From: Burkholderiales bacterium | GTDB lineage: Bacteria > Vulcanimicrobiota > Xenobia > Xenobiales > Xenobiaceae | Direction: 5' to 3' | Assembly (NCBI GenBank): GCA_012799975.1 | Contig: JAAZKF010000210.1 | Span: 1-33,895, forward strand | DNA: 33,895 nucleotides | Notes under the pieces: generated by a model | Databases searched by the model: none | Seen by the model: the letters and a program-made list of their open reading frames with translations, nothing else | Told to the model about the DNA's origin: nothing | Translations under genes and position numbers: made by a program | Shown here: positions 3,713-33,717 of the stretch, in pieces | Position numbering within the stretch: position 1 is the first letter of the stretch | Layout of the letters: each line of letters opens with the position of its first letter

Positions 3713-5011
3713 TCAGCCTAGCAGGCGGGCCCGCAGGCCAAGCCGACCCTGCCGGGCCAGCTTTTCCTTCAAGCGGGTCCGGTTCTCGCGCCCGATCCCG
3801 CTGGACAGGGCGCGGTTGAGGGCTTTCCAGTCCTGGTTTCGCGTGATGCCCCGATTCCAGTGCACCAGGGCCCAGCCCAGGGCTTCGCGGCGGACCGGGT
3901 CCTTCTCGCTGTGGAGCTGGTCCACCAGGTCGGCCGGATCGTAGCGGCGCTCCAAAACCCGAAGGATCCGGTCGCGAACCCGGTCGTCGGTCTCTCGGGC
4001 CAGCCACGAAAGCCAGTCCGCCGGGTTTTCGAAGAGGTCGGCCAGGCGCAGTCGGACCTGCGGATTGGGGTGTCGGCTCAGCTCCCAGGCCTCTTCCGGC
4101 GAATCCTGGACTGCTGAGCGGGCCATGGCTACCAGTCCGGGCTGGAGGTTCCAGTCCGGTTGAGCCAGGAGCCAGGCCAGCACGTCCACACCGGGACGAA
4201 GGCGGCCCTGCAGGCCTGCATGTTGGACCTCCTGACGCAGCGATTCGGCGGCGTGTTGGTCCAGGAATAGTTGCAGCGTCTCGACCCGTTCGATGCCCTC
4301 GCAGCGTTCCAAAGCCGCTCCGGCGTCCTGCCACCCGCCTCCGAAGCGGACCAGTTCCTGTCGGTGCTGCGTGGAGAGGAGGTCCCATTGCTGATAGCCG
4401 ACCGGGAAGAGCCTGAGCAGCACTCGCTGGCGGACCACGTCGAGCTGCGCCGGGGTCGGGTTCTCCAGGCGTTGGAATTCGTAGATCTCGTCGACGATAG
4501 TGTCATTCGGCCGCTGGCGCAGGTTCCTCTGCCCTTCCAGGCGACACAGGTGAAGCCATCCATCGCTGCCCAGCATGAGTGTCTCGCGACGGGGGTTGGT
4601 GGGGGTAAGTGGCAGGAAGGACTCGGTGGTCCAACGACGGGCTTCGGCCCGGGCTCCCATGACGTTGTGCGAGCGGCGGATCACGGAGGGCTGGGGCCGG
4701 AAGCCTTCCAGGTTGCGTACCGCCACTTCCAGCCAGCAGGACACCTCCTCACGGTTGCCTTCGGAGGGAGGCAGGATCAGCAAACAGACCAGGTCTTCCA
4801 GGTGTGGTACCACGCCCCGGCCGTTCGTGGACGGTCTGCGGAATCCTATCCGCTTCAGGATGGCCGGGTTTCCGGTTTGGGAAGCAGGGGCGACCCGGAG
4901 CCGGATAGAACTGGCAGAAAGCCAAGGAGCGATCCCCCACTCAGGCGGCGCCCCGACATGCGGGTCCCGACCGAAGACCTGGATCGCAGGGAGATCGAAT
5001 GGATAACTCAC
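3713..5011 (-). CDS. Hypothetical protein with HEAT-like C-terminal repeats
   Basis: I do not recognise the family. The 432-residue soluble protein has a beta-rich N-terminal part (residues about 1-165) and a helical C-terminal half. Residues about 290-390 read like short HEAT or ARM-type helical repeats (for example NPQVRLRLADLFENP and DPVRREALGWALVHW). There is no signal peptide, membrane segment or obvious catalytic motif. The chosen start is GTG at 5011, preceded by a G-rich stretch; it overlaps the divergent pilT start by 13 bases. The N-terminal sequence looks coherent, which favours this start, but a later start (for example the GTG near residue 67) is possible. Being head to head with pilT suggests shared regulation, not a shared function. 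Confidence 0.75.
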   Translation of the reverse strand: MSYPFDLPAIQVFGRDPHVGAPPEWGIAPWLSASSIRLRVAPASQTGNPAILKRIGFRRPSTNGRGVVPHLEDLVCLLILPPSEGNREEVSCWLEVAVRNLEGFRPQPSVIRRSHNVMGARAEARRWTTESFLPLTPTNPRRETLMLGSDGWLHLCRLEGQRNLRQRPNDTIVDEIYEFQRLENPTPAQLDVVRQRVLLRLFPVGYQQWDLLSTQHRQELVRFGGGWQDAGAALERCEGIERVETLQLFLDQHAAESLRQEVQHAGLQGRLRPGVDVLAWLLAQPDWNLQPGLVAMARSAVQDSPEEAWELSRHPNPQVRLRLADLFENPADWLSWLARETDDRVRDRILRVLERRYDPADLVDQLHSEKDPVRREALGWALVHWNRGITRNQDWKALNRALSSGIGRENRTRLKEKLARQGRLGLRARLLG

Positions 5012-6102
5012 CCCCCCGGGAAGTCAGCCTTCTGGAAACCGGCGAACTGACAATCGATGATCTGCTCCACACCATGGTGGAGCGCGGTGCTTCCGACCTG
5101 CACATCAAGGTCGGAAGTGCGCCGATGATTCGGGTTGATGGCGAGTTGACCCCCGCCACCTATGAAATCCTGACCCCGGAGTCGGTGCGGCATATGTGCG
5201 AGAGCATACTGACCGACGAGCAGAAGGCCAAGTTCATCGCCGACAAGGAACTGGACCTGGCCTACAGCATTCCGGGTATCTCCCGTTTCCGGGTCAACAT
5301 CTACCTGCAGCGCGGAACCTGGGGCGCGGCCATCCGGGTCATCCCTTCGCGGCCCCTGACGCTGGACGAGCTCAAGATGCCACCTATCGTCAAGGACCTG
5401 GCCATGCGTCCCCGCGGTCTGGTCCTGGTGACCGGACCGACAGGATCCGGCAAGTCCACCACGCTGGCCGCGATGATCAACCACATCAACGAGAACAGGC
5501 GTTGCCACATAGTGACCTGCGAGGATCCCATCGAGTTCCTCCACAAGGACAAGAACTCGGTGCTGAGCCAGCGCGAGGTCGGTTCGGATACCCACAGTTT
5601 CGCGATGGCCTTGAAGCACGTTTTGCGCCAGGACCCCGACGTGATCCTGATCGGCGAGATGCGCGACTACGAGACGACCTCCATCGCGATCTCGGCCGCT
5701 GAAACCGGTCATATGGTCTTCGCCACCCTGCATACCAATTCGGCTGCCGCCACCGTAGACCGGGTGATCGACATCTTTCCCCCTCACCAGCAGCAGCAGA
5801 TCCGCATGCAGCTCTCCATCTGCCTGGAGGGGATCATGTGTCAGAACCTGATTCCCAAAGCCCGCGGAGGCGGTCGGGTTATGGCCATGGAGATCATGCC
5901 GATGATCCCCGGCATCCGAAACATCATCCGGGAAGGCAAGTCCCACCAGATCCCCAGCGCCATCCAGACCGGAGCGCAATTTGGGATGCAGGCTTTTGAC
6001 ATGTCTTTGCGCAATTTGTATCAGCAGGGCCTGATCACCTATGAGGATGCCCTTTCCAAAGCCCACAGCCCGGACGAATTCAACCGATTGATCGGCAAGT
6101 GA
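4999..6102 (+). CDS. pilT: Type IV pilus retraction ATPase PilT
   Basis: Hexameric cytoplasmic motor that depolymerises pilin and powers twitching motility, adhesion or DNA uptake. All 367 residues match the family: N-terminal PAS-like domain (SDLHIKVGSAP), Walker A GPTGSGKS (146-153), Asp box CEDPIEF, Walker B with catalytic E220 (LIGEMRD), His box HMVFATLHT (238-246), and the retraction-specific GIRNIIREGK motif in place of the usual AIRNLIRE. The start is ATG 4999 with GGGAG just upstream. It is followed 38 bases later by a second PilT-like gene, so the two are probably one operon. The pilB gene lies elsewhere in the window (11393-12982) on the other strand. Confidence 0.96.
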   Translation: MDNSPPREVSLLETGELTIDDLLHTMVERGASDLHIKVGSAPMIRVDGELTPATYEILTPESVRHMCESILTDEQKAKFIADKELDLAYSIPGISRFRVNIYLQRGTWGAAIRVIPSRPLTLDELKMPPIVKDLAMRPRGLVLVTGPTGSGKSTTLAAMINHINENRRCHIVTCEDPIEFLHKDKNSVLSQREVGSDTHSFAMALKHVLRQDPDVILIGEMRDYETTSIAISAAETGHMVFATLHTNSAAATVDRVIDIFPPHQQQQIRMQLSICLEGIMCQNLIPKARGGGRVMAMEIMPMIPGIRNIIREGKSHQIPSAIQTGAQFGMQAFDMSLRNLYQQGLITYEDALSKAHSPDEFNRLIGK

Positions 6103-6140
6103 TTCTCGGTATCTGAACCTCCTGGAGGAATATCGCGCCC

Positions 6141-7208
6141 ATGAACGTCGAAGAACTCTTCACCAGCATGGTAGAGCGGAGGGCCTCTCACCTGCATCTG
6201 GTGCCGGGTAGTCCGATCATGATGCGGATCAACAATCAGCTCCATGGTCTGGACGGGCAACTGCTCTCACCACAGGACACGCGGGCCTTCAGCGACGCGA
6301 TCATGAACGAGCAGCTCCGGGAGGAGTTCGAAGAACGCCTCGAGGTAGACTTCTCCTTCTCGGTACCCGGTCTTTCCCGCTTCCGGGTCAATATCTTCCG
6401 ACAGCGTGGTTCCGTGGCAGTCGTGATCTCCACGAACCCTCCGGCTCCTCCGACTATCGAAGAGCTGGGCATGCCCGAGTTGATCAAGAATCTGGCCCTG
6501 GAGGCCTCCAGCGGTCTGATCATCGTGTGTGGACCAAAGCAGTCGGGGAAGTCCCATACCCTGGCGGCGCTGGTGAACTACATCCTGGAGATGCGCACCT
6601 GCCAGATCATCTCCCTGGAGAATCCCATCGACTTCCTGCACAAGAACAAGCGGGGCATCATCTGCCAGCGTGAGATCGGCACCGACACGATGAGCTACGA
6701 GACGGCCTTTGCCTCGCTTCGCCATCAGAGCGCCGACATCGTCATCGTCACGGGCCTGGAGACCTATGAGGTGGTCAACCAGGCCTTGAACCTGGCGGCC
6801 GGAGGGACCTTGGTCCTGGCCACGGCGACGGCGGTCAGTTGTCAGGTCATGCTGGAGAAAATTATCGATCTCTACCCCCCTCACCTCAACCAGGCCGCCC
6901 GCAGCCTGTTGGCGGTGTCTCTGGAGGCGATTATCGGACAAACGCTGCTGACCAAGGCTTCAGGAGATGGCCTGATGCCGGCCTTCGAACTGCTTATCGG
7001 CACCTCTCATGTCAAGTCGTTGCTGCGCGAGAACAAGCTCTTCCAGATCCAGAACCTGATGAGCACCGTCGGGCGGGACTCCGGGATGCAGACCCAGGAG
7101 ATGGCTCTGCGCTTCCTGGTCAAGAAGAATCTGGTCACCATGGAGGAAGCGGTTCGCAAGGCGGTCCGCCCCGAGGAGTTCAAGAAGATCATGTCCTTGC
7201 CCTACTGA
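6141..7208 (+). CDS. PilT-like protein with degenerate ATPase motifs
   Basis: A paralog of the preceding PilT that aligns with it nearly end to end (355 residues). The P-loop is changed to GPKQSGKS (131-138), keeping the GKS core. The Walker B stretch reads [10 protein letters not shown] where PilT has VILIGEMRDYE, so the catalytic Glu becomes G205 and the following Arg-Asp becomes Glu-Thr. The His box TLHTNSA becomes TATAVSC. The retraction motif is [15 protein letters not shown] may still bind, but hydrolysis is unlikely. PilU, the usual accessory PilT paralog, keeps its ATPase residues, so this is not a simple PilU. Likely role (inference): a regulatory subunit or mixed-ring partner of PilT. 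GGAGGA lies before ATG 6141, and an intrinsic terminator follows. Confidence 0.9.
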
Positions 7209-10298: not shown

Positions 10299-11372
10299 TC
10301 AGGTGGTTGCTTTTATTTCGAATCTGGCATCCTGGGAGATGACCCTGCCGAGAAGTTCCAACAGTTCGGGGTCGTGCCGGCCGCAGGAACGGCTCAGGAA
10401 GTCGAGCAGGAACTCAGGAAGCTCCTGCTCGGGAGGGCGATCCATCCAGGATTCATCATAATCCTCGGCCAGTGCCAGGATTCTCGCCGCTTGCGGTGTC
10501 TGTTCGCCGACCAGGTGGTCGGGAAAGCCCGACCCGTCCCAGCGCTCGTGGTGGTGGCGCACGAGGGGGGCGGTTTTCTCCAGGACCTTGATGCGCTCCA
10601 GCAGATCGCTGCCGATTACCGGGTGGCGCTTGTCGTTGCGGGCCACGACCGAGGTCTCCAGCATCAGCTTGCCGATGTCGTGGAAGTAGGCCGCGTAGTA
10701 GAGGGTCTCGTAGTCCTTGCCCAGGATTCCCAGTTCGCGGGCCAGACGGCTGGTCGTTCGGGAGACCCGGATGACGTGGCCCTGGCTTCCGGGTTCGATG
10801 GATTCCAGGGCGGCGATCAGGATCTCGATGGTGTGGACGAAGAAGTTCTGCAACTGCTCGATAAGACCGACGTTGTATAACACCACCGCGGCATGGTTGG
10901 CCAGGACCGTCAGGACCTCTTGATCGGCCTCGGTGAAACCTCCATCTAGTTTGTTGATAGATTCCAGGACGCCGAAGATCCGCTCACCCCAGATGATCGG
11001 GACGGCCAGGACCGAGCGGGTGGGGATGGCGGTGACCCGGTCCACGCCCTTGAAGTGACGGGGATCCTCGGTGGCTTTGTTGCTGATCGTCGGGCGTCGG
11101 TTGTTGAAGGCGATCCCCGCGATGCTGGCGGTGTCCAGGGGGACCCGGACCTTCTTGATCGTTTCCCCGAGTTCGCCCAGGGTCTCCTTGAAGTAGAGAT
11201 CCCCGTGTTCCTCGTCCAGCAACAGGATGGAGGCGGATTCGGAGTCGGTGATCTCGCGGGCGCAGGCCGTGATCCGACCCAGAAGCTGGTCGGTGTCGGT
11301 GCTGGCTGCGATGTCCTGCTCCATCTCGCACAAGCGCGAGTAGAGGAGGGCGCGCTCGCTCTGGCTCTGCAT
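10299..11372 (-). CDS. GAF domain plus HD-GYP phosphodiesterase-like response protein
   Basis: Predicted c-di-GMP phosphodiesterase with a sensory input. Residues about 20-165 form a GAF domain (SESASILLLDEEHGDLYF, ending VLANHAAVVLYN). Residues about 180-320 form an HD-GYP domain: an H in GHVIRVSR, HDIGK, HHERWDGSGFP and LALAEDYDE. The GYP triplet reads GFP, a conservative change. The metal ligands that can be seen are present, so activity is likely. The protein is cytosolic. The start is ATG 11372, 20 bases after the pilB stop; reading frame further upstream runs into pilB and is not coding. Close linkage to pilB suggests control of pilus extension by c-di-GMP (inference). About 357 residues. 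Confidence 0.93.
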   Translation of the reverse strand: MQSQSERALLYSRLCEMEQDIAASTDTDQLLGRITACAREITDSESASILLLDEEHGDLYFKETLGELGETIKKVRVPLDTASIAGIAFNNRRPTISNKATEDPRHFKGVDRVTAIPTRSVLAVPIIWGERIFGVLESINKLDGGFTEADQEVLTVLANHAAVVLYNVGLIEQLQNFFVHTIEILIAALESIEPGSQGHVIRVSRTTSRLARELGILGKDYETLYYAAYFHDIGKLMLETSVVARNDKRHPVIGSDLLERIKVLEKTAPLVRHHHERWDGSGFPDHLVGEQTPQAARILALAEDYDESWMDRPPEQELPEFLLDFLSRSCGRHDPELLELLGRVISQDARFEIKATT

Positions 11373-11392
11373 CCTGGTGAGGCCCTTTCCTT

Positions 11393-12982
11393 TTAGTGGC
11401 TGGCCGTGACGCGCAGCAGTTCCTCGTAGGAGGTGACGCCGTTGTAGACCTTGCGCAGGCCGTCCTCGTACAGGAACTTCATACCGTTGGCGATGGCGGC
11501 TTCCTTGATCTCGTGTTCTTGAGCCTGGCGGACGATCATCTGGCGGATCGGCTCGGTGGCTTCGAAGAGTTCGTAGATGCCCACCCGACCCTTGTAGCCC
11601 AACTGGTTGCAGGCAGCACAACCGCGACCGCGCATCATCCGGCTGGCATCGGGATCCATTTCATACTTCTCGAAGATCTTCTTCAGGGGGGGCTCCGGAA
11701 CGATGGGTTCGGCGCAGTTGGAACAGACCTTGCGCACCAGGCGCTGGGCCAGGATCCCATTCAGGGTGGAGGAAACCAGGAAGGGCTCGATCCCCATATC
11801 GGTCATGCGTATGATCGAGGCGATGGCCGAGTTGGTGTGCAGCGTGGACAGGACCAGGTGTCCGGTCAGCGCAGCTTCCACCGCGATGGTGCCTGTCTCC
11901 TCGTCGCGGATCTCACCCAGCATGATTATATCGGGGTCCTGTCGAAGGAAGCACTTCAGGGCCCGGGCGAAGGTCAGTCCGGCTTTGTTGTTGGTCTGGA
12001 CCTGTACGATGCCCCGCATGTTGTACTCGACCGGGTCCTCGACGGTCAGCATCTTGCGATCGGGCTGGTTCAGCACGTTCAGGGTGGCGTACAGGGTGGT
12101 GGACTTTCCTGAACCGGTCGGTCCAGTCACTAGGATGATCCCGTGAGGGCGTGAGTAGAGTTTCCTCCACAGGAGCAGATCCTGCTCGAAGAAGCCCAGT
12201 TGGGTCAGCTCGACCTTGGTGTTGCCCCGGTCCAGGATACGCATTACGACGCTCTCGCCCATGACCGAGGGCAGCGTCGAGACGCGCAGGTCCAGGTCTC
12301 GCCCGCCCACCGAGAGTTGGATTCGTCCGTCCTGGGGAACGCGCTTCTCGTCGATGCGCAATTGGGCCATGATCTTGATGCGGGCCACGATGGCGGACAG
12401 CAGGTTGCGAGGGATGTTCATCTCCTCGTGAAGGATGCCGTCGATGCGGTAGCGGACCACGACTTCGTGTTCGAAGGGTTCGATGTGGATGTCCGAGGCC
12501 TTGCGTTCTATCCCCTTGACGATGACCATGTTGGCCAGTTTGATGACGGGCTGATCGATCTTTTCCTCGTCGTTTCCCTCGTCTTCCTCTTCCTGGATGA
12601 CGTCCACGTGGGCGTCGGTAGCCTGGTCGACCAGTTCCTTCCAGCGGTTGTCTCCGCCATAAACCCTTTCGATCGACTGGGCGATGTCCGCGGGCCGCGA
12701 CAGCACGGCCTCGACATCCAGGCCGGTGCGGAACTTGATGTCGTCGATGGCGAAGACGTCAAGAGGGTCGACCATGGCCAGGGTCACCCTCTTCTCCAGT
12801 TTGCCGATGCAGACCAGGTTGTAGCGGCGGGCCATGGCTTCGGGGATGATCTGCCCGACCTCGGGGTCGATCTCCAGTCCGCCCAGGTTGACGAACTTGA
12901 CCCGCATCCGCTTGGCCTTCTCCTGGAGCTGCTCGTCGGTCTCCTGGCCGGCGCCGGTGACCACCAGTTCGGTGGGTTCCAT
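11393..12982 (-). CDS. pilB: Type IV pilus assembly ATPase PilB (GspE family)
   Basis: Cytoplasmic hexameric motor that powers pilin polymerisation. The 529-residue protein has an N-terminal GspE_N/MshEN-like domain (about 15-110: EIDPEVGQIIPEAMARRYN), an acidic linker (about 128-142), and the motor domain with Walker A GPTGSGKS (about 287-294), VEDPVEY, Walker B IIMLGEIRDEET and His box HLVLSTLHTNSA. A four-cysteine zinc site (CSNC and CAAC) and YKGRVGIYELF follow, as in PilB and GspE. Start ATG 12982 has GGGAGA 9 bases upstream; a GTG at 13027 is a weaker alternative. It sits 71 bases after the cNMP-HD-GYP gene and 20 bases before GAF-HD-GYP. MshEN domains in relatives can bind c-di-GMP, which fits the neighbours. 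PilB versus GspE rests on the pilT genes in the window. Confidence 0.94.
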   Translation of the reverse strand: MEPTELVVTGAGQETDEQLQEKAKRMRVKFVNLGGLEIDPEVGQIIPEAMARRYNLVCIGKLEKRVTLAMVDPLDVFAIDDIKFRTGLDVEAVLSRPADIAQSIERVYGGDNRWKELVDQATDAHVDVIQEEEDEGNDEEKIDQPVIKLANMVIVKGIERKASDIHIEPFEHEVVVRYRIDGILHEEMNIPRNLLSAIVARIKIMAQLRIDEKRVPQDGRIQLSVGGRDLDLRVSTLPSVMGESVVMRILDRGNTKVELTQLGFFEQDLLLWRKLYSRPHGIILVTGPTGSGKSTTLYATLNVLNQPDRKMLTVEDPVEYNMRGIVQVQTNNKAGLTFARALKCFLRQDPDIIMLGEIRDEETGTIAVEAALTGHLVLSTLHTNSAIASIIRMTDMGIEPFLVSSTLNGILAQRLVRKVCSNCAEPIVPEPPLKKIFEKYEMDPDASRMMRGRGCAACNQLGYKGRVGIYELFEATEPIRQMIVRQAQEHEIKEAAIANGMKFLYEDGLRKVYNGVTSYEELLRVTASH

Positions 12983-13053
12983 CTGTGCTATTCTCCCATA
13001 TCTTGAACTGGCCCTGAACCTTGGCACAGGGTCGGTCGTTTCCGGGCGACGGC

Positions 13054-14706
13054 CTACACCGAGTTCTCCTCGTCCCAGACGCAGCTCTCGCCGCGCTCGA
13101 TCATGCCGCGCACGATCTCTTGGAAGAAGGGAAAGATCTCCGGGTCGAAATGCCCGTCGGCCATCTCTTCTATTATAGACAAAGCCTTTTCAGGGGTGAA
13201 TGCCTTGCTCTTCCCCGCAGAATCTACGCGGTAGACCCGGGGCGTGGTCAGGGCGCTCCACACATCGGCGATGGCCATGACTCGGGCCAGGTAGGGAATC
13301 TCCTCGCCGATGAGTCCGTCCGGGTAGCCTTGGCCGTTGTATTTCTCGTGGTGGGCCCGGACGATGGCAGTCAGCTCGTCCATGCCCAGGATGTCGGCAA
13401 AGAAGTCCGCCGAGCGGGCGGCGTGGGTCTTCATGACCTCGAATTCTTCGGGAGTGAGCTTACGCGGGGCATTGAGGATCTTCTCGTCGATGAAGATCTT
13501 CCCCACGTCGTGCAGTTCGGCTCCGATCCGCATGTACTCTTGTTCCTTGCGTCCCAGGCCCAGGGCCCGGGACAGGCGCAGGCCCATGTTGCGGACGTCC
13601 ATCGAGTGGCGCCAGGTATAGTTGTCCTTTCGGTCCAGCGCGATCACCATCATGCGCATGACGTTGAGCTGCGCTTCGACCCGCAGGTCCTTGTATTTCC
13701 CGACGTTCTTCTCCAGGGCAGCGATGGCCCGGGGATGGTATAGGCTTCCGGCCCCGGCATGGATCTGGGCCAGGGCCTCCTCCTCGCTGAGGTTGCGGTA
13801 ATTCGGAGAGCGTCGCTCGAGGTAGTCGTCGGCGACCTTCAGGATCTGGGCTTCCAGAGGCATGTCGTGGTAATTCTTGCGGCCCAGGAAACGCAGGAAG
13901 CCGATGCTCTCGTGGAGCGCATTGTTGGGGGCCAGGATGTCCACGGCCATCTCGAAGATGTGCTCGAATTTTTCGCGCTCTTCCGGAGTCAGGGGTAGGC
14001 CTTGACGCTCTTTGAGGATCAGCTCGCGGGGCAACGAGACTTTCCCTATCTCGTGGAGATAACCCGCGAAGAGGATCTCCTCGGAGACCATCGGGCACAG
14101 CATCTTGCTCATCTCGCGAGCCAACTGGCCGACTTCCTTGCAGTGTTCCACCTGCTCGTGACCGCCGGCAGCCTCGTTGAGCTTCATCAGCAGGTCCAGA
14201 TAGGAATAGTCCAGCTCCAGCCGACGCCCGGAGGTGAATTTCTCCTGGTCGCGCCCCTGCCTTTCCTCGGACTCGAGCAGCGAGACCCGCTGCTCGAGGA
14301 GTTTGTTCATCTGCACGGCCAGATCGGGAAGACGGCGGTACAGGACGGAGAAATCGTCCCGCATCAGGACCAGGGTCTCGACCGGATCCAGGGCCTTGAT
14401 GGTAGCCGAACGGGGCTGGTCGATAAGCAGGGCCATCTCGCCGAAGCCCTCACCCAGGCCCAGCTCGGCCAGGACCAGCTCGCGTCCGTCGGAGTATTTC
14501 ACGACGTGCACGTGCCCTTCGCGGATCAGGTAGAAGGAGTCCCCGGGTTCGCCTTCGCGGACGATGACCTCTTCGGGTTCGAAGCGGCGCACCTGGAACT
14601 TCTCGGCGATGGACTGCACCACCGGGCGGGGAAGCGAGTAAAAGAGGGGATTGCCGGCGATGAAGTCGGCAATCTCCTCGTGCGAGAGCCCGGTTGTCCT
14701 GGTCAT
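13054..14706 (-). CDS. Cyclic-nucleotide-binding protein with tandem HD-GYP domains (first degenerate)
   Basis: A 550-residue cytosolic protein that could couple a cyclic nucleotide to c-di-GMP breakdown. Residues about 18-135 are a CRP-like cNMP-binding domain with the phosphate-binding cassette GEGFGEMALLIDQPRSAT (E90, R99). Residues about 185-335 resemble an HD-GYP domain but have HEIGK instead of HDIGK and no HHE or GYP motif, so they are probably structural. Residues about 345-535 are a complete HD-GYP domain: H367, HD at 399-400, HH at 452-453, GYPDGL from 460. Start ATG 14706 overlaps the cyclase stop (ATGA), so it is made together with the cyclase. Partner relation to the cyclase is inferred from fusion logic and coupling. 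Confidence 0.93.
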   Translation of the reverse strand: MTRTTGLSHEEIADFIAGNPLFYSLPRPVVQSIAEKFQVRRFEPEEVIVREGEPGDSFYLIREGHVHVVKYSDGRELVLAELGLGEGFGEMALLIDQPRSATIKALDPVETLVLMRDDFSVLYRRLPDLAVQMNKLLEQRVSLLESEERQGRDQEKFTSGRRLELDYSYLDLLMKLNEAAGGHEQVEHCKEVGQLAREMSKMLCPMVSEEILFAGYLHEIGKVSLPRELILKERQGLPLTPEEREKFEHIFEMAVDILAPNNALHESIGFLRFLGRKNYHDMPLEAQILKVADDYLERRSPNYRNLSEEEALAQIHAGAGSLYHPRAIAALEKNVGKYKDLRVEAQLNVMRMMVIALDRKDNYTWRHSMDVRNMGLRLSRALGLGRKEQEYMRIGAELHDVGKIFIDEKILNAPRKLTPEEFEVMKTHAARSADFFADILGMDELTAIVRAHHEKYNGQGYPDGLIGEEIPYLARVMAIADVWSALTTPRVYRVDSAGKSKAFTPEKALSIIEEMADGHFDPEIFPFFQEIVRGMIERGESCVWDEENSV

Positions 14707-16814
14707 ACCCTACCTCTTGTCAGTTCGGCCATACCCCGGGCATCCACTCCGTAAACCTGCAATGGTTCCTTCTTTCCCTTCACCCGGACTGATTCGAGGT
14801 AGGTAGCCACGATCTCCTCGCCCGCGGCCTCGAATGTGCTCTGGGTGATCAGTATCGGGCTTCCCAGTTCCTTGGATTTACCCTGCATCCTGGCAGCCGT
14901 GTTGGTGGCATCCCCGATGGCAGCATACTGCTTGCGTTGCGCTGAACCCAGGACCCCGATGGCGACGGGCCCAGTACAGATGCCGATTCCCGTCTCAAAG
15001 ACGGGGCGTCCCTGGGCTTTCCAGGTGGCGCCGAGTTCCTCCAGGCGCAGGACCATGCCTGCGGCAGCTCGGCAGGCGGCGGCTGCGTGGTTGGGTTGCG
15101 ATTCCGGCACCAGTCCGAAGACCACCATCTGGGCATCTCCCTGATAGTCGAAGACGATACCGCCGTGGCGTTCGAAGACCTCGCCCATGGCCGAATGGTA
15201 GGTGTTGAGCATTTCGGTGACGGTCACCGGAGAAAGCCCTTCCGAGAGGTCAGTATAACCCCGGATATCCGAGAACAGGATGGTGAGGACTCGTTCTTCT
15301 GAGCCCACTTTGAGGCCATCCCGGCCCAGCAAAGCCTCCAGATCGGGTATCGGGGCCACCTCCTGGAGGATGCGCGCAAAGCGATCTCGCGCCACTTTCT
15401 GGGCTCGCACGTTGTAGAGGGTGACGCTGCCGAAGCTGGCCAGGGCGCCCAACCAGGGGAGGAAGACGGGGAGTTTGGTCCCTCCGGTGGTCCAATAACC
15501 ATCGTACATCAGACGATAGCCCATCCACCAGTAGCCGGCCAGAATCCCCAGGAAGACCAGGCCAGCGACCCGCACGTCCAAGAATACTCCCACCAGGGTG
15601 GCCAGGGCTGCCAGGCCGAAGACCAGTGCCAGACCTTGCGCAAAGGTAGGCTCGTGCAGGAAATTGCCTTGGATCAGGTTCCACATGACGTTGGCGTGGA
15701 TGCCGACCCCCGAGATCGCGCCTACCTCAGAGCCCTTGACATCGTGCCCGCCCAAGATGGTGACTCCGACCATGGCGATCACCTGGTTGGGTGTCTCCTT
15801 CCCGGTTACAGGGTCGACGGTATGCCCGAAGAGCCCCTCGAGCTGGTCTTCAGGCACGTTCAGGATGTCCTGGATGGAATAGACCTGGATGAAGTCCGAG
15901 ATGGAGGGGACGTCGACGCGGGCCACGCGGGCCTGCTGGTCTGGGAGTACCTGGATCTGGCCTTCCTGGTAGTGGGAGTCGGGGGGCTCCATAGTCGAGG
16001 TCGTGGTGGAGACATCCGAGCCGAAGAAGGCGATCCGGCCCGTGCGGGCGGTGAAAAGGTAGGGTGAACCGGGCAGGGACAGGTCCACATTGAAGAGGCG
16101 CTCCCGGCAGCGTTCCATGACCTCGGCGGGAGAGATCCCTTCGAAGTGGGCCAGGGCCACGATGTCCAGGGCATAGTTCGAGGGACCAGGTTGGCTGGGG
16201 ATGGGGAGAACTTCGAGGACGGCGTAGCGGACCCGCAGGTCGGGGTCGGTCAGCTCTTTGGTGAAGCCGAAGCGGGTGGCATAATCGTGCTCGGTCCAAT
16301 CGTCCAGAAGCCCCTCGTATATGCCGCTCCGGACCATCTGGTCGCCGTGAGCGGCCAGGACGTAGGGGACCACCACGCTGGGCCGGGCCAGGGCCTGGCG
16401 CAGCAGTTCGTCCTGCTGGGGGTCGGGGCCCCGGGCCCCAAAGAGGATGTCCAGGGCGATCGTACGGGCTCCGGCTTTCTCCAGGCGCTGGACCAGGTCC
16501 AGGTAGAGCCCGCGGCGGATGGGCCATTCCAATCCGGCAGCTAGCGAGCTGTCATCGAAGACCACCAGGACCAGTTTCTCGGCGAAGACAGGGTCCATGA
16601 AGGCGGCTCCGGAGTGGACGTAGCGCCCGCTGGCCCCGTAGGTCTCGAAGGTCCTGTCCATCCAGGTGCGCTGGATCAGGTTCTCCATGAAGCGGATCCA
16701 GGTCCGTTCCTGGACCAGGTAGGACACCCCGCAGACCAGGAAGGCGACCGCCAGTCCCAGGCCCAATGACAGGATTTTCTGGTGGCGGCTATAGTCGCTG
16801 GTCAGGCGCAGCAA
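14703..16814 (-). CDS. CHASE2-domain class III nucleotide cyclase
   Basis: Membrane-bound cyclase with an extracytoplasmic sensor. One TM helix (about 14-33) leads into a CHASE2 domain (about 40-380, including LVLVVFDDSS, ARTIALDILF and GIHANVMWNLIQ). Two or three TM helices follow (about 390-468), then a catalytic domain (about 505-690). Metal aspartates D516 (FSDIRGYT) and D560 (QGDAQMVVFG) and the transition-state N638 and R642 (GDATNTAAR) are present. The position that holds the purine-selecting Lys in adenylate cyclases is D556, and the second selecting position is A631 or A632, so the product may not be cAMP. Start is TTG 16814 behind AAGGGAG. FecR upstream and a cNMP-binding protein downstream fit a signalling unit. 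Confidence 0.92.
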   Translation of the reverse strand: MLRLTSDYSRHQKILSLGLGLAVAFLVCGVSYLVQERTWIRFMENLIQRTWMDRTFETYGASGRYVHSGAAFMDPVFAEKLVLVVFDDSSLAAGLEWPIRRGLYLDLVQRLEKAGARTIALDILFGARGPDPQQDELLRQALARPSVVVPYVLAAHGDQMVRSGIYEGLLDDWTEHDYATRFGFTKELTDPDLRVRYAVLEVLPIPSQPGPSNYALDIVALAHFEGISPAEVMERCRERLFNVDLSLPGSPYLFTARTGRIAFFGSDVSTTTSTMEPPDSHYQEGQIQVLPDQQARVARVDVPSISDFIQVYSIQDILNVPEDQLEGLFGHTVDPVTGKETPNQVIAMVGVTILGGHDVKGSEVGAISGVGIHANVMWNLIQGNFLHEPTFAQGLALVFGLAALATLVGVFLDVRVAGLVFLGILAGYWWMGYRLMYDGYWTTGGTKLPVFLPWLGALASFGSVTLYNVRAQKVARDRFARILQEVAPIPDLEALLGRDGLKVGSEERVLTILFSDIRGYTDLSEGLSPVTVTEMLNTYHSAMGEVFERHGGIVFDYQGDAQMVVFGLVPESQPNHAAAACRAAAGMVLRLEELGATWKAQGRPVFETGIGICTGPVAIGVLGSAQRKQYAAIGDATNTAARMQGKSKELGSPILITQSTFEAAGEEIVATYLESVRVKGKKEPLQVYGVDARGMAELTRGRV

Positions 16815-16837
16815 CGTCGGAAGCTCCCTTCGACGGC

Positions 16838-16864
16838 GGCGCCCGGTCCCGAGAACCGGGCGCC
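16838..16864 (-). terminator. GC-rich hairpin between fecR and the cyclase gene
   Basis: A perfect 10-pair stem GGCGCCCGGT/ACCGGGCGCC with a 7-base loop (11 pairs with the flanking C-G). There is no T run on the minus strand, so it may be a weak terminator or processing site that lowers expression of the cyclase, whose TTG start lies about 23 bases further on. Confidence 0.5.
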
Positions 16865-16914
16865 GACCCGCGATTCGGTCGGGTTTCCCCTCCTGATCCA
16901 GGCGCGGGAGGCGA

Positions 16915-17865
16915 TCAGGGCGGAGAGGGATAGGAACCGAAGGAAGACTGCACGTCCAGGATCAAGGTTCCGGTGCTGGTCGAACGCGGCCCGAAAAACG
17001 CCGGATCCCCACCGATGGCCCCGTCGTCGCCCTGACCGGTGCTGGTGGACCTGGAGTCCGAGTAGAGGCCCGTGGGTACCGTACCGAAGTTGTTGAACAA
17101 CGTGCCCCGGGTTCCCGAATCGAAGGGGGCGAATTGGGAACCGGGCCCTTCACCGTAGTCGGGAAGGTCCAGGCCAGGGGTGTCCTGGGTGAAGCCCCGA
17201 GCCCGCTCGGACGAGAAGTTTGGAGGGTTGGATTCCGGAAGCCCGTCACCCTGGACCTGGCCGGTGTCCCCAGCATGAAGAGTCCGGGTCACTCCATCGC
17301 GGTTGGTCATCGAGACCGTTCCGTTAAAGACTGCCAATCTGGTGAGGGTTTGCCTTCCTCCCTGAGCCTGGACCCAGCCGTCCTCTGAAGCCATCTCTTC
17401 AGGGTTGATGACGGTGACCAGGAAGTCTGTGCCCTGGGCAGCCAGGACTGCGTTCGGCGTGGTCACCTCAAAGCGGCTCTGGCGACCGCGAAATCTCGAG
17501 ACCTGGGCTCGGAGCGAACCATTGTTTATTTTCAGCGCGGCGTCCCGGCTTCTGGAATCCAGGGTGAATCTCTCCATCTGGACCTGGGTGGAGGGCCCGA
17601 CGGCGACCAGGCTGTTGTCCGCCAGGCGCAGGTGGGCCACGCCGTTGTCCAGGGTTCGGGCCCAGTCCTGGGCCCCCAGGCGCCGGTTGGTCAGGACCCG
17701 CAGCCAGGTCTGGCTTCCGGCCAGGCGGCTTTCGACCTCTCCCTGCTTGCGCATGACCGTGATCCAACTCCCCCCTTGTGCCAGGGTGGGGAGGGTCAGG
17801 AGAATCAGCAGAGCGATGAAGGCCACCGGGGCCCCAAGCCCCTTGAGTCGAGTCCAATAATTCAT
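16915..17865 (-). CDS. FecR-domain secreted protein
   Basis: Predicted exported protein of 316 residues. An N-terminal signal peptide (hydrophobic core APVAFIALLILLTLPTLAQG, cleavage near residue 31) is followed by a FecR domain (residues about 35-195: DWARTLDNGVAHLRLADNSL, then VTTPNAVLAAQGTDFLVTV). The C-terminal 120 residues are Gly/Ser/Pro-rich and probably disordered. Classical FecR is an inner-membrane regulator paired with a FecI ECF sigma factor; no FecI is here and the protein has no N-terminal cytoplasmic tail. FecR domains next to CHASE2 cyclases are known in other bacteria, so it may be the envelope partner of the following cyclase (inference). Start ATG 17865 has GAGGGG upstream. 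Confidence 0.85.
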   Translation of the reverse strand: MNYWTRLKGLGAPVAFIALLILLTLPTLAQGGSWITVMRKQGEVESRLAGSQTWLRVLTNRRLGAQDWARTLDNGVAHLRLADNSLVAVGPSTQVQMERFTLDSRSRDAALKINNGSLRAQVSRFRGRQSRFEVTTPNAVLAAQGTDFLVTVINPEEMASEDGWVQAQGGRQTLTRLAVFNGTVSMTNRDGVTRTLHAGDTGQVQGDGLPESNPPNFSSERARGFTQDTPGLDLPDYGEGPGSQFAPFDSGTRGTLFNNFGTVPTGLYSDSRSTSTGQGDDGAIGGDPAFFGPRSTSTGTLILDVQSSFGSYPSPP

Positions 17866-18005: not shown

Positions 18006-18599
18006 TCAGGAACCCACCGGCAACTTTCGGATCACGCCCACCACCCGGCCCAACAGGCGCTCGGGGCAGCCGGCCTCCGTTGGCCTGGGAGTGGTCTTGA
18101 AGGTGCTCAGTTGGGCCGGACCGTCCATCCCCGTGCTGGTCAACACCATGTCGCCCTCCCGGGGGCCGTGGTCGGGGTTCACGATCAGCAGGTCGCCCGG
18201 CATGATCGCTTCCTGGAGGTAGTTCTCAGAATCGACGCGGTAGAGGAATGAGCCTGCGGTTCCCACCAGTTCGATGGGCAGCGAGAGGACCTCCGGAAGT
18301 TCTTCTTCCTCGGGCATCCCGGCGCGCACGGGTACGTCCACCAGACGGCTCTGGGGGTGGCGGGGCCAGTCTACGATTTCGATGGATCGCGGTTTGGAGG
18401 GGTTGCGCCGGATATAGCGCTTCTCTTCCAGGGTTCGCAGGTGGCTGTGCACCGTGGAACTGGAGGATAGGCCCACGGCCTCGCCGATCTCGCGGATCGA
18501 GGGGGGAAAACCCCGAGAGCGAACCGAGCGGCAGATGAAGTCCAGGATTTCGGACTGGCGACGCGTCAAGCGCGCTCTGCTCTGGGGGGTTCCTGCCAT
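18006..18599 (-). CDS. LexA-like repressor without the protease dyad
   Basis: A 197-residue LexA homolog. The winged-helix domain is typical (RQSEILDFICRSVRSRGFPP, SSSSTVHSHLRTLEEK). The C-terminal S24-type fold is recognisable by FLYRVDS...IMPGDLLIVN and LLGRVVGVIRKL. A gapless comparison with E. coli LexA puts N127 at the catalytic Ser position (RVDSENY against RVSGMSM) and Q163 at the Lys position. An Ala-Gly pair (93-94) remains near the cleavage region, but that loop is four residues shorter. Self-cleavage in response to RecA is therefore not expected. Start ATG 18599 follows AGGAGG. It has no SOS box and sits 102 bases after the sigma gene, so it may be a constitutive or ligand-controlled repressor (inference). 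Confidence 0.9.
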   Translation of the reverse strand: MAGTPQSRARLTRRQSEILDFICRSVRSRGFPPSIREIGEAVGLSSSSTVHSHLRTLEEKRYIRRNPSKPRSIEIVDWPRHPQSRLVDVPVRAGMPEEEELPEVLSLPIELVGTAGSFLYRVDSENYLQEAIMPGDLLIVNPDHGPREGDMVLTSTGMDGPAQLSTFKTTPRPTEAGCPERLLGRVVGVIRKLPVGS

Positions 18600-18701: not shown

Positions 18702-19481
18702 TCAGGGAGATTGACCCCGACCGGGGTCAATCTCCACCAGGGCCTGTTTCATGCGCTCCAGCGAGCGTTGCTGCAGCCGGGAGACGTGCATCTGGCTTAT
18801 GTCCAGGATCCGGGCTATGTCGCTCTGGGAACGGTTTTCGAAGTAGCGCAGGAACATCAAGTGTTGTTCCCGAGGGGGGAGGGAGGCGAAGGCCCGGCGC
18901 AAGGCCAGCCGGTCTTCGACTCGTTCCAGGTTGAGGTCTTCCTGACCCAGGTAGTCCAGCAGGCTTGCCGACTTGCCCTCGTTCTCTCCGTCTATTTCGG
19001 AATTCAACGAGACCATGTTGTAGGCTCGGCCCAGTTCCTGGGCCTGCAGCACCTCGTCGGCAGCGACCTCCAGGCGTTCAGCGATCTCCTGTACGGTCGG
19101 GGCTCGACCCAACTCCGAGGCCATCTGCTCGGAGGTCCGGTTCACCGACTGGTTGAGCTCTTGCAGGCGGCGGGGGATCTTCATCGCCCATCCCTTGTCC
19201 CGGAAGTGGCGCTTGATCTCCCCTACGATGGTCGGGGTGGCATAGGTGGTGAACTCGTTGCCCCGTTCGGGGTCGTAGCGATCCAGTGCCTTGACCAGCC
19301 CCAGAGAACCGACCTGTACCAGGTCTTCCAGGCTCTCGCCGCGCCCGGCGAACTTGCCTGCCAGGTAGCGGACCAGGTTCAGGTGCAGGGCGGCCAGCTC
19401 GGCCTTGGTCTGGGGATCCCGGGTCCGAGCGTAATCCTTTAGCAACTCCCGGACGCGATCCCGATCTCGCCAGAGGTCCAT
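18702..19481 (-). CDS. SigB/SigF/SigG-family RNA polymerase sigma factor
   Basis: Group 3 sigma factor of about 259 residues. Region 2 is clear (LVRYLAGKF, EDLVQVGSLGLVKALDRYDP, FTTYATPTIVGEIKRHFRDKGW), region 3 follows (PRRLQELNQSVNRTSEQM, GRAPTVQEIAERL), and region 4 ends the protein (LPPREQHLMFLRYFENRSQSDIARIL, QMHVSRLQQRSLERM). Start ATG 19481 overlaps the upstream stop by one base (TGATG), behind GGGGGTG. The gene order STAS, RsbW-like, sigma equals that of B. subtilis spoIIA and sigB operons, so the factor is probably held by the anti-sigma protein and freed by partner switching. The target regulon cannot be seen here; neighbours suggest envelope stress or surface behaviour. Confidence 0.95.
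   Translation of the reverse strand: MDLWRDRDRVRELLKDYARTRDPQTKAELAALHLNLVRYLAGKFAGRGESLEDLVQVGSLGLVKALDRYDPERGNEFTTYATPTIVGEIKRHFRDKGWAMKIPRRLQELNQSVNRTSEQMASELGRAPTVQEIAERLEVAADEVLQAQELGRAYNMVSLNSEIDGENEGKSASLLDYLGQEDLNLERVEDRLALRRAFASLPPREQHLMFLRYFENRSQSDIARILDISQMHVSRLQQRSLERMKQALVEIDPGRGQSP
18706..18735 (-). terminator. 13-pair hairpin inside the 3' end of the sigma gene
   Basis: Arms GGAGATTGACCCC and GGGGTCAATCTCC are perfect inverted repeats with a 4-base loop. The hairpin forms from the last codons of the sigma gene. No T run follows, so it may block exonucleases or attenuate read-through to the LexA-like gene. Confidence 0.5.
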
Positions 19482-19888
19482 CACGGCACCCCCGACAGGT
19501 TCACGGTCAACTGCAGACCGGCAGGTTTCTCGAGCCGTTCCACGGTGTCGACCAGGGCTTCCATGAGAATCAGGCCCAGGGGGGGCGATTCTTCTGAGGA
19601 CACCAAGGGGCCCGGGGTCGGTTGCGGGAGGAGTCGGACACACAGGCGGTCGGGGGCCATCTCGAAGCGGATCGCGATCCGTTCCAGGGCAGGAAGAGTT
19701 TGAATGCAGTAGCTACAGGCCTCGTCCACGGCCATCTTGAGGTCTTCACCCCGGTCCGGCGGTATGTCCAGGCGATGGCACAAGCCTGCCACCGCCAGTC
19801 GGACGACTCCCAGGAATTCCGCCTGGGCCGGGATGGTCAGGCCCAGGCGGAAAGGGCCTGTCTGGAGTGACGGACCGGGTTCAGGCAA
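19481..19888 (-). CDS. RsbW/SpoIIAB-like anti-sigma factor with reduced kinase motifs
   Basis: A 135-residue HATPase_c-type protein between the STAS and sigma genes, hence predicted to bind the sigma factor and to phosphorylate the STAS protein. The N-terminal PFRLGLTIPAQAEFLGVVRLA and the N-box region EDLKMAVDEACSYCIQ are recognisable. The N-box Asn, needed for Mg-ATP, is Y60, and the DxGxG (G1) box is missing: the stretch that should hold it is LPQPTPGPLVSSEESP. Only the GLILMEALVDTVE helix after it is typical. ATP binding is therefore doubtful. Start is TTG 19888, overlapping the STAS stop by 8 bases, and the stop overlaps the sigma start by one base. Confidence 0.85.
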   Translation of the reverse strand: MPEPGPSLQTGPFRLGLTIPAQAEFLGVVRLAVAGLCHRLDIPPDRGEDLKMAVDEACSYCIQTLPALERIAIRFEMAPDRLCVRLLPQPTPGPLVSSEESPPLGLILMEALVDTVERLEKPAGLQLTVNLSGVP

Positions 19889-20225
19889 GGGCTTTGAGGG
19901 CCTCTTCCTCGTCCTTGTAGATTTCGAAGATCTTCACCAGGCCTGTGATGTTGAAGATTTTCTTTATCTGGGGGTTGGTGCAGATCAGCAGGATCCGCCC
20001 CTCGTGCTCACGGACCTTCTTGAGGGCTCCGATGAGGACCCCCAGGCCGGTGCTGTCGATGTAGCGGACGCCCTCCAGGTCGATGATCAGGTTGAAGCGC
20101 CCTTTTTCGATCAGCTCGTTGATCATCTCTTTGACGCGGGGCGAGGTGTATACGTCTATCTCGCCCTGCACCTCGACCACATGAGCTTTGTCCAGGACCG
20201 AGCGGGTGTTCACCTTGATATCCAA
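19881..20225 (-). CDS. STAS-domain anti-anti-sigma factor (RsbV/SpoIIAA type)
   Basis: A 114-residue single-domain STAS protein. It shows the standard opening VVEVQGEIDVYTSP, the VRYIDSTGLGVLIGALKK motif with the phosphorylatable Ser of DST, and the RILLICTNPQIKKIFNITGL ending. In the family, the unphosphorylated form binds the RsbW kinase and releases sigma; phosphorylation at Ser turns it off. The chosen start is TTG 20225, behind GAGGAGG; reading frame upstream is unlike protein. It is the first gene of the sigma operon and overlaps the anti-sigma gene by 8 bases. A phosphatase to reactivate it (RsbU/SpoIIE type) is not in the window. Confidence 0.95.
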   Translation of the reverse strand: MDIKVNTRSVLDKAHVVEVQGEIDVYTSPRVKEMINELIEKGRFNLIIDLEGVRYIDSTGLGVLIGALKKVREHEGRILLICTNPQIKKIFNITGLVKIFEIYKDEEEALKALA

Positions 20226-20311
20226 GATTCTCGACCTCCTCGTGGGGTCTTGTCGGGAGAGATGTAGCCGGGCAGCCTCCCCCCCATTGGTGCGGCCCGG
20301 GCACAAAACCC

Positions 20312-33061: not shown

Positions 33062-33682
33062 TTAGCGATACTTACGAACCAGCGCAGACACCCGTCCCAC
33101 GACCCGGAAGTCACGGGACACAATGATATCTTCATAGATGGGGTTGTCTGATCGCAGGACGACCCGATCCGCCTCCGGGTAGAAGCGCTTGACCGTGGCT
33201 TCGTCCTCGATTATGGCGACTACGATCTCGGCGCGGTGCACGCGCACATCCGGCTCTACCAGGACCAGGTCGCCGGCCTGAATCCCTTCAGCCATGCTGT
33301 CTCCCCGGACCCTGAGAAAGAAGGAACTCTCGTCTACAGGCAGCCAGTCCTGGCGAATCGGCAGGTGCTCTTCGATGTCTTCTACAGCCAGGATTGGCCG
33401 TCCGGCCGCGACCTCGCCGAGCAGGGGAACCATCCGGACGTGTTCCGTAGAGTCGGGCTCTTCCAAGAGCCCGCTGGCCAGACGGATGGTGCGAGCCCCC
33501 GATTCCCGCTGGATGCAACCCTTCTTTTCCAGCGCTTCCAGGTGGCGGCTCACGGCCTGGGTGGACCGGAAGCCGCAATGCTCGGCAATCTCGCGGAAGG
33601 TAGGTGGGAAGCCCCTCTCTCGGATGGTCCGGACCAGGAAGTCCAGGATTTCCCTTTGGCGCTTGTTGAGTTCCGGGTGCAT
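33062..33682 (-). CDS. lexA: LexA repressor, SOS regulator
   Basis: Canonical LexA of 206 residues. The winged HTH (RQREILDFLVRTIRERGFPP, STQAVSRHLEALEKKG) is followed by the cleavage site A93-G94 in VPLLGEVAAGRPI, nucleophile S129 in RGDSMAEG and general base K165 in EATVKRF, so RecA-stimulated self-cleavage is expected. It should repress the SOS regulon and itself. Start ATG 33682 follows CGGAGAAAG; an in-frame ATG at 33709 lies inside an operator and is rejected. Two GAAC-N4-GTTC boxes cover its promoter. It heads an operon with two small ORFs. It contrasts with the LexA-like protein at 18006-18599, which lacks the dyad. Confidence 0.97.
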   Translation of the reverse strand: MHPELNKRQREILDFLVRTIRERGFPPTFREIAEHCGFRSTQAVSRHLEALEKKGCIQRESGARTIRLASGLLEEPDSTEHVRMVPLLGEVAAGRPILAVEDIEEHLPIRQDWLPVDESSFFLRVRGDSMAEGIQAGDLVLVEPDVRVHRAEIVVAIIEDEATVKRFYPEADRVVLRSDNPIYEDIIVSRDFRVVGRVSALVRKYR

Positions 33683-33701
33683 GGCTTTCTCCGGGCGATC
33701 T

Positions 33702-33717
33702 GTGAACATATGTTCAC
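33702..33717. promoter_or_regulatory. SOS box 2, lexA leader
   Basis: GTGAACATATGTTCAC is a perfect 16-base palindrome with the GAAC-N4-GTTC core of Gram-positive-type LexA operators. It lies about 20 bases upstream of the lexA ATG, downstream of the promoter. Confidence 0.9.

Follow-up and report, generated by a model that had tools for sequence, protein, structure and literature searches.

Control of cyclic dimeric GMP (c-di-GMP) metabolism by cyclic mononucleotides is known from XC_0250/XC_0249, Bd1971, Lcd1, and Tlr0485 (PMC3770947, PMC6717892, PMC8846402). In Xanthomonas campestris, a class III cyclase making cyclic GMP (cGMP) and an effector with a cyclic nucleotide-binding (cNMP) domain acting on c-di-GMP are encoded side by side (XC_0250 and XC_0249, respectively), and XC_0249 also influences pilus-dependent motility (PMC3770947). 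In Bd1971 from Bdellovibrio, a c-di-GMP phosphodiesterase is joined to a cNMP domain and activated by cyclic AMP (cAMP) or cGMP (PMC6717892). Here, we describe a related block of genes in a 33,895-nucleotide stretch of DNA from Burkholderiales bacterium (contig JAAZKF010000210.1 of GCA_012799975.1; referred to as the window, or G000:C448), whose source assembly comprises 452 contigs with an estimated completeness of 96% and contamination of 5%. In this block, genes for a class III cyclase and a cNMP-domain protein precede that of a PilB/GspE-family assembly ATPase (referred to as PilB2).

We tentatively regard the block as a surface-to-pilus control operon around PilB2 as a second, specialised pilus assembly ATPase, a reading to which we give somewhat less than an even chance. 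FecR and the CHASE2 domain would sense the state of the envelope and set the activity of the cyclase, which would make a cyclic mononucleotide, likelier cGMP than cAMP. Binding of this nucleotide to the cNMP domain encoded by the next gene would raise or lower the HD-GYP activity of the same protein towards c-di-GMP (or 3'3'-cyclic GMP-AMP; 3'3'-cGAMP), and PilB2, without the N-terminal part of the MshEN domain (MshEN_N), may feel the change through the neighbouring GAF-HD protein as a docked sensor or adaptor. The assembly of these genes and its conservation are new; the single steps have published precedents, and the mechanism is inferred. If true, signalling by a mononucleotide and by a dinucleotide would be joined with a pilus motor in one heritable unit, and a traffic ATPase would have given up its internal c-di-GMP domain in exchange for a distinct protein as sensor.

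Gene order and its conservation

The genes followed one another on the minus strand (5' to 3') in the order LexA-like regulator, FecR, CHASE2-cyclase, cNMP-HD-HD-GYP, PilB2, and GAF-HD (Table 1). The best starts were at 17865 (FecR), 12982 (PilB2; ATG), and 11372 (GAF-HD; ATG), and the intergenic gaps were 100 bp (FecR-cyclase), -4 bp (cyclase/cNMP-HD-GYP), 71 bp (cNMP-HD-GYP/PilB2), and 20 bp (PilB2/GAF-HD). The five same-strand genes from FecR to GAF-HD (10299-17865) named in the preliminary description were all found on this strand with agreeing Pfam matches, as was the 4-base overlap (ATGA) between the cyclase and its likely reader.

The neighbourhoods of orthologues were compared among relatives, with genes assigned by the best match to the window proteins; most of these assemblies were drafts, in which contig ends conceal some neighbours. 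Six families of the phylum showed the order LexA-FecR-cyclase-[cNMP-HD-GYP]-PilB2-GAF-HD, either whole or for the most part, with 31-60% identity of the block proteins in distant families, where most flanking genes were not kept. The full six-gene order was present in G002 (same genus). G018, from a different family of the phylum, had it too, interrupted by extra genes. G033 had LexA-FecR-cyclase-cNMP-HD-GYP-PilB2 with GAF-HD missing; G009 (same order), on a short contig, had cyclase-cNMP-HD-GYP-PilB2-GAF-HD; and G015 (class) and G026 (phylum) had LexA-FecR-cyclase-PilB2-GAF-HD, without the cNMP gene. The PilB2-GAF-HD pair was found in G019, G021, G022, G023, and G027, and PilB2 only in G006; GAF-HD adjoined PilB2 in 13 of 15 genomes. 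Beyond the genus, FecR orthologues were recognised by their place in the block and their domain, with identities of 31-41% in G015, G018, G026, and G033. Eight genomes of family f15, with motors 51-54% identical, stood outside this comparison; at the threshold used, GAF-HD was not found in three of them. In G018 (L052:7004-7906), a xylose-isomerase-like TIM barrel gene was located inside the block, and in G022 (L145:2604-3398) directly after the cyclase.

When the block was compared with 13 flanking window genes in four distant genomes with longer contigs, preferential retention gave Fisher p values of 0.0005 (G026), 0.003 (G033), 0.0003 (G018), and 0.01 (G015), which are descriptive values treating genes as independent. 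The order is conserved across the phylum beyond chance, and a lack of conserved linkage, one half of what the preliminary description (which had proposed this check) held would speak against it, falls away because linkage was kept in six families. By this pattern of retention, both halves of the block have long been neighbours, GAF-HD is the steadiest partner of PilB2, and the cNMP gene is an optional member. Plain inheritance of an operon, in which the genes stay together for expression (shared LexA-like control) without acting on one another, is very unlikely: housekeeping genes also showed partial synteny (seryl-tRNA synthetase in G010, G011, G015, and G018; STAS and SigF in family f2), but block genes were preferentially retained over flanking genes in distant genomes, and the functions of the neighbours are complementary.

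The cyclase and the cNMP-HD-GYP protein

The cyclase contained the two metal-binding Asp and the transition-state Asn and Arg residues of class III enzymes. The base-specifying pair was Asp-Ala, not the Lys plus Asp/Thr of adenylyl cyclases, and in the window and its orthologues the first site was Asp (as in the window), Glu (as in G015), or Thr (as in G026), never Lys; guanylyl cyclases have Glu at this site and a variable second site (PMC4215837). The two closest solved chains were Synechocystis Cya2 (2w01) and a Cya2-derived fusion (6fht; PMC5995499). In Cya2, a guanylyl cyclase under CHASE2 control, the pair is Glu-Gly, and a single Glu-to-Lys change converts the enzyme to an adenylyl cyclase (PMC4215837, PMC5995499). 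Since the first site lacks Lys and is acidic or Thr, as in the GTP-using Cya2, cGMP is a better prediction for the product than cAMP, with the reservation that Asp has a shorter side chain than Glu; the assumption that cAMP is made was weakened.

The cNMP-binding cassette of the next protein (FGEMALLIDQPRSAT) carried E90 and R99, matching the Glu and Arg through which domains of this family bind the ribose and cyclic phosphate of the ligand. It was conserved in orthologues (FGEMALL..PR[ST]AT), altered in G020, and lost in a paralogue of G033. Against solved structures, this domain matched both cGMP- and cAMP-binding proteins. Two HD domains followed: the first was degenerate (HEIGK, without HHExxDGxGYP) and the second canonical. 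The metal ligands of PmGH (H189, H221, D222, H250, H276, H277, and D305) were retained in the second HD of the window copy (7/7), together with D183 and K225; the seven ligands were also present in every aligned homologue except the G033 paralogue. The position of E185 was Tyr (seven of the eight PmGH ligands kept), and since Glu at this position marks the trinuclear subgroup and Tyr/Phe the presumed binuclear one (PMC4159591), the protein belongs to the latter. As judged from these residues, the cyclase and cNMP-HD-GYP keep most of what their predicted activities need. There were 16 GGDEF matches in the genome. A second cNMP-HD-GYP copy (~77% identical) was found away from the block in members of the genus (L042, L057, and L058), and none in the window genome.

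The predicted model of cNMP-HD-GYP (predicted local distance difference test [pLDDT] score of 74) aligned with the cyclic-nucleotide domains of PKG and CRP, with V-cGAP3 across its two HD domains, and with PmGH and DvhD; global TM-scores were low because the placement of domains was uncertain. In this fold search, the tandem-HD part aligned over 428 columns with V-cGAP3, which is specific for cGAMP and has a similar tandem plan. Nevertheless, 3'3'-cGAMP rather than c-di-GMP as the target of the HD-GYP domain appears quite unlikely, because PmGH and other c-di-GMP-binding HD-GYPs matched the catalytic HD equally well and no cGAMP synthase was identified in the analysis.

The PilB2 motor and its GAF-HD neighbour

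PilB2 retained Walker A, the Asp, Walker B, and His boxes, and the tetracysteine, as a member of the T2SSE/PilB superfamily. Together with its orthologues, it formed a clade of its own (SH-like approximate likelihood ratio test support of 89) beside the main PilB clade (95). Elsewhere in the genome, there were a separate main PilB-PilT-PilC set and a GspE-F-D set. The scores of PilB2 were 589.3 bits with the PilB model (TIGR02538; cut-off 675.65) and 613.5 bits with the GspE model (TIGR02533; cut-off 630.25), and this order would fit a motor of a type II secretion-like or other pseudopilus instead of a type IV pilus. We consider this improbable: PilT genes are located 4-6 kb away in the window, and also at the locus in G002, G001, G015, and G022, the best solved relative of PilB2 was a type IV pilus PilB (5zfr), and the GspE-F-D cluster is separate. 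Homologues of both tandem PilT-type ATPases (4999-7208) were present at the locus in G002, G001, G010, and G011, and of one in G015 and G022.

The PF05157 match on PilB2 spanned the C-terminal MshEN part alone, not the c-di-GMP-binding part, and neither of the two 24-residue RLGxx... MshEN motifs (PMC5013675) was found in any PilB2, with the relaxed or a looser motif. Since PilB2 starts ~22 residues ahead of the C-terminal subdomain, there is no room for the 53-residue c-di-GMP-binding unit (PMC5013675). The main PilB of the group has a longer N-terminus resembling this unit, yet did not match the published relaxed motif. The motor had initially been credited with an N-domain of a c-di-GMP-binding type; as both motifs are absent, direct binding through MshEN was rejected.

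The GAF-HD protein aligned with PmGH almost end to end, and its motif ends in GFP, not GYP. The window copy retained six of the eight PmGH ligands (E185 to Gly and D305 to Glu), and might be active as an enzyme. On the other hand, D222, H250, H276, or H277 was lost in orthologues adjoining PilB2 in G015, G016, G021, and G026, in which the GAF part was conserved, so that the metal ligands are not kept through the family as in HD-GYP phosphodiesterases. The NK..F..D pattern is common in GAF domains, and was not counted here as evidence for nucleotide binding. Alanine mutants of PmGH at the missing ligands are inactive (PMC4159591). The loss of ligands with a conserved GAF part makes a sensor or adaptor the likelier and more economical reading, and the plain second phosphodiesterase of the preliminary description was weakened.

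At the head of the block, the LexA-like protein had lost the catalytic Ser of autoproteolysis (RVDSENY in place of GDSM of LexA). In the orthologues compared (L039, L040, L043, L048, L049, L053, and L191), this Ser was also lost in the genus and order of the window, G026, and G033, and kept in G018 and G015. Synechocystis LexA, likewise without this Ser, controls pilin genes (PMC4759255). A second LexA in the window (33062-33709), with intact GDSM and a strong Peptidase_S24 match, is probably the SOS LexA. Directly upstream of the block on the same strand (18702-20306) were genes for a sigma-70 family factor, a HATPase_c_2 anti-sigma-like kinase, and a STAS protein, which resemble a module for sigma partner switching; of these, the genes of the sigma factor and the STAS protein stay beside LexA in G010-G012.

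Table 1. Features of the window (positions in the window; residues numbered in each protein)
Feature	Positions	Strand	Evidence
LexA-like regulator, heading the conserved block	18006..18599	-	Pfam LexA_DNA_bind 7e-25; aligned to its orthologues and to the other LexA in the window
Exported FecR-domain protein; signal peptide MNYWTRLKGLGAPVAFIALLILLTLPTLAQG	16915..17865	-	Pfam FecR 5e-11; N-terminus
CHASE2 class III nucleotidyl cyclase	14703..16814	-	CHASE2 8e-25; Guanylate_cyc 5e-24
CHASE2 extracytoplasmic sensor domain, residues 64-399	15618..16625	-	Pfam 7.8e-25
Cyclase catalytic domain; metal Asp 516/560, Asn638/Arg642 present	14763..15287	-	
Base-specifying codon 1, Asp556 (Cya2 has Glu, adenylyl cyclases have Lys)	15147..15149	-	Alignment to 2w01
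Base-specifying codon 2, Ala631 (Gly in Cya2)	14922..14924	-	Alignment to 2w01
ATGA, cyclase stop overlapping cNMP-HD-GYP start by 4 bases	14703..14706	-	
cNMP-binding/degenerate HD/HD-GYP protein	13054..14706	-	cNMP_binding 3e-23; HD_5 6e-45
Phosphate-binding cassette FGEMALLIDQPRSAT, residues 88-102 of cNMP-HD-GYP	14401..14445	-	
Canonical HD-GYP domain, residues 356-524; H367, H399, D400, H428, H452, H453, D481	13135..13641	-	
PilB2, PilB/GspE-family assembly ATPase without MshEN_N	11393..12982	-	T2SSE 6e-138; MshEN (PF05157) 2e-19
Leftover C-terminal part of MshEN/GSPII domain (PF05157) in PilB2	12650..12904	-	
GAF-HD protein, motif HHERWDGSGFP; steadiest PilB2 neighbour	10299..11372	-	GAF_2 6e-17; HD_5 2e-19
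PilT retraction ATPase, nearby on the opposite strand	4999..6102	+	TIGR01420 484.8 bits, over cut-off
Second, divergent PilT-like ATPase	6141..7208	+	TIGR01420 300.4 bits, below cut-off 319.1

Assessment and comparison with described systems

Several observations weigh against a surface-to-pilus control operon. PilB2 falls below the cut-offs of both motor models and has no adjoining PilC, the genome holds two further class III cyclases and seven further cNMP domains, and the AlphaFold model of GAF-HD, built from three sequences, had a pLDDT of 40. In cNMP-HD-GYP, the position of PmGH D308, whose alanine mutant lost activity (PMC4159591), was Ser in the window and all orthologues, and that of its partner R192 was changed too (Asp/His). 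The proposed fusion of a cyclic nucleotide receptor to an HD-GYP phosphodiesterase keeps an intact cassette and most metal ligands; this Ser calls for caution, and the first HD is degenerate. Moreover, cNMP-HD-GYP was missing between the cyclase and PilB2 in two families (G015 and G026), and was kept without PilB2, GAF-HD, or the block cyclase, none of which was found at comparable scores, in six genomes of family f2 (G008 and G010-G014), adjoining LexA in G010, G011, and G012. The link is thus not obligatory, and a closed cyclase-reader-motor unit was rejected in that sense. What remains of the wiring plan from cyclase through reader to motor is the kept linkage and the residues retained in the first two proteins; a tight tie of cNMP-HD-GYP to the motor does not.

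This independent gain or loss of cNMP-HD-GYP would also fit two modules on one transcript: PilB2 and GAF-HD as a motor with its regulator, FecR and the cyclase as a general sensor of envelope stress, and cNMP-HD-GYP as an inserted global c-di-GMP phosphodiesterase, the cyclase having no dedicated connection to the motor. PilB2-GAF-HD had no adjoining cyclase in G019, G021, G023, and G027, and the FecR-CHASE2 cyclase clusters of Campylobacterota have other partners (PMC9239204). We nevertheless hold two separate modules to be somewhat unlikely, because FecR-cyclase remains beside PilB2-GAF-HD across families, with or without the cNMP gene, while the surroundings changed. The control operon around PilB2 has a stronger form, a dedicated one-operon relay: a surface-sensing guanylate cyclase would produce cGMP that gates c-di-GMP breakdown beside a motor stripped of its c-di-GMP domain, which would read the outcome via a docked GAF-HD protein turning from enzyme into sensor. 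In this full form, it is unlikely.

Limited full-text literature searches found no description of such a complete chain next to a pilus motor without a c-di-GMP domain. The block resembles XC_0250/XC_0249 in the adjacency of cyclase and cNMP-domain effector, but XC_0249 has a GGDEF output, which makes c-di-GMP, whereas HD-GYP breaks it, so that this is not a pair of the same type; XC_0250 also lacks the usual Asn/Arg pair, and FecR and motor genes are outside the reported pair (PMC3770947). Bd1971 shares the fusion of a cNMP domain to a phosphodiesterase, but of the EAL type, not tandem HD/HD-GYP, and no report was found of a cyclase or motor gene beside it (PMC6717892). Tlr0485 from Thermosynechococcus is listed as a cAMP-activated GAF-HD-GYP c-di-GMP phosphodiesterase, in a bacterium that shows phototaxis and bears type IV pili; it senses by GAF, not by a cNMP domain, whereas GAF-HD of the block is catalytically degenerate in several orthologues (PMC8846402). 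The cyclase is closest to the CHASE2-linked class III enzyme Cya2 in its solved catalytic domain (2w01) and its acidic base-specifying residue, and differs in having Asp-Ala, not Glu-Gly (PMC4215837, PMC5995499). In Campylobacterota, a FecR gene likewise adjoins that of a CHASE2 adenylate cyclase, but these clusters include a cAMP phosphodiesterase and a TPR protein, without mention of a pilus motor (PMC9239204). The c-di-GMP-binding ATPases MshE and PilB belong to the same superfamily as PilB2 and share its C-terminal MshEN subdomain, but contain the two 24-residue motifs that PilB2 lacks (PMC5013675). Finally, DvhD, although a membrane PAS-HD-GYP protein that controls a protease and is not the partner of a motor, has been proven to use its HD-GYP domain as a receptor for c-di-GMP, the domain having become non-catalytic (PMC13090378), which is the kind of change that GAF-HD may have undergone beside PilB2.

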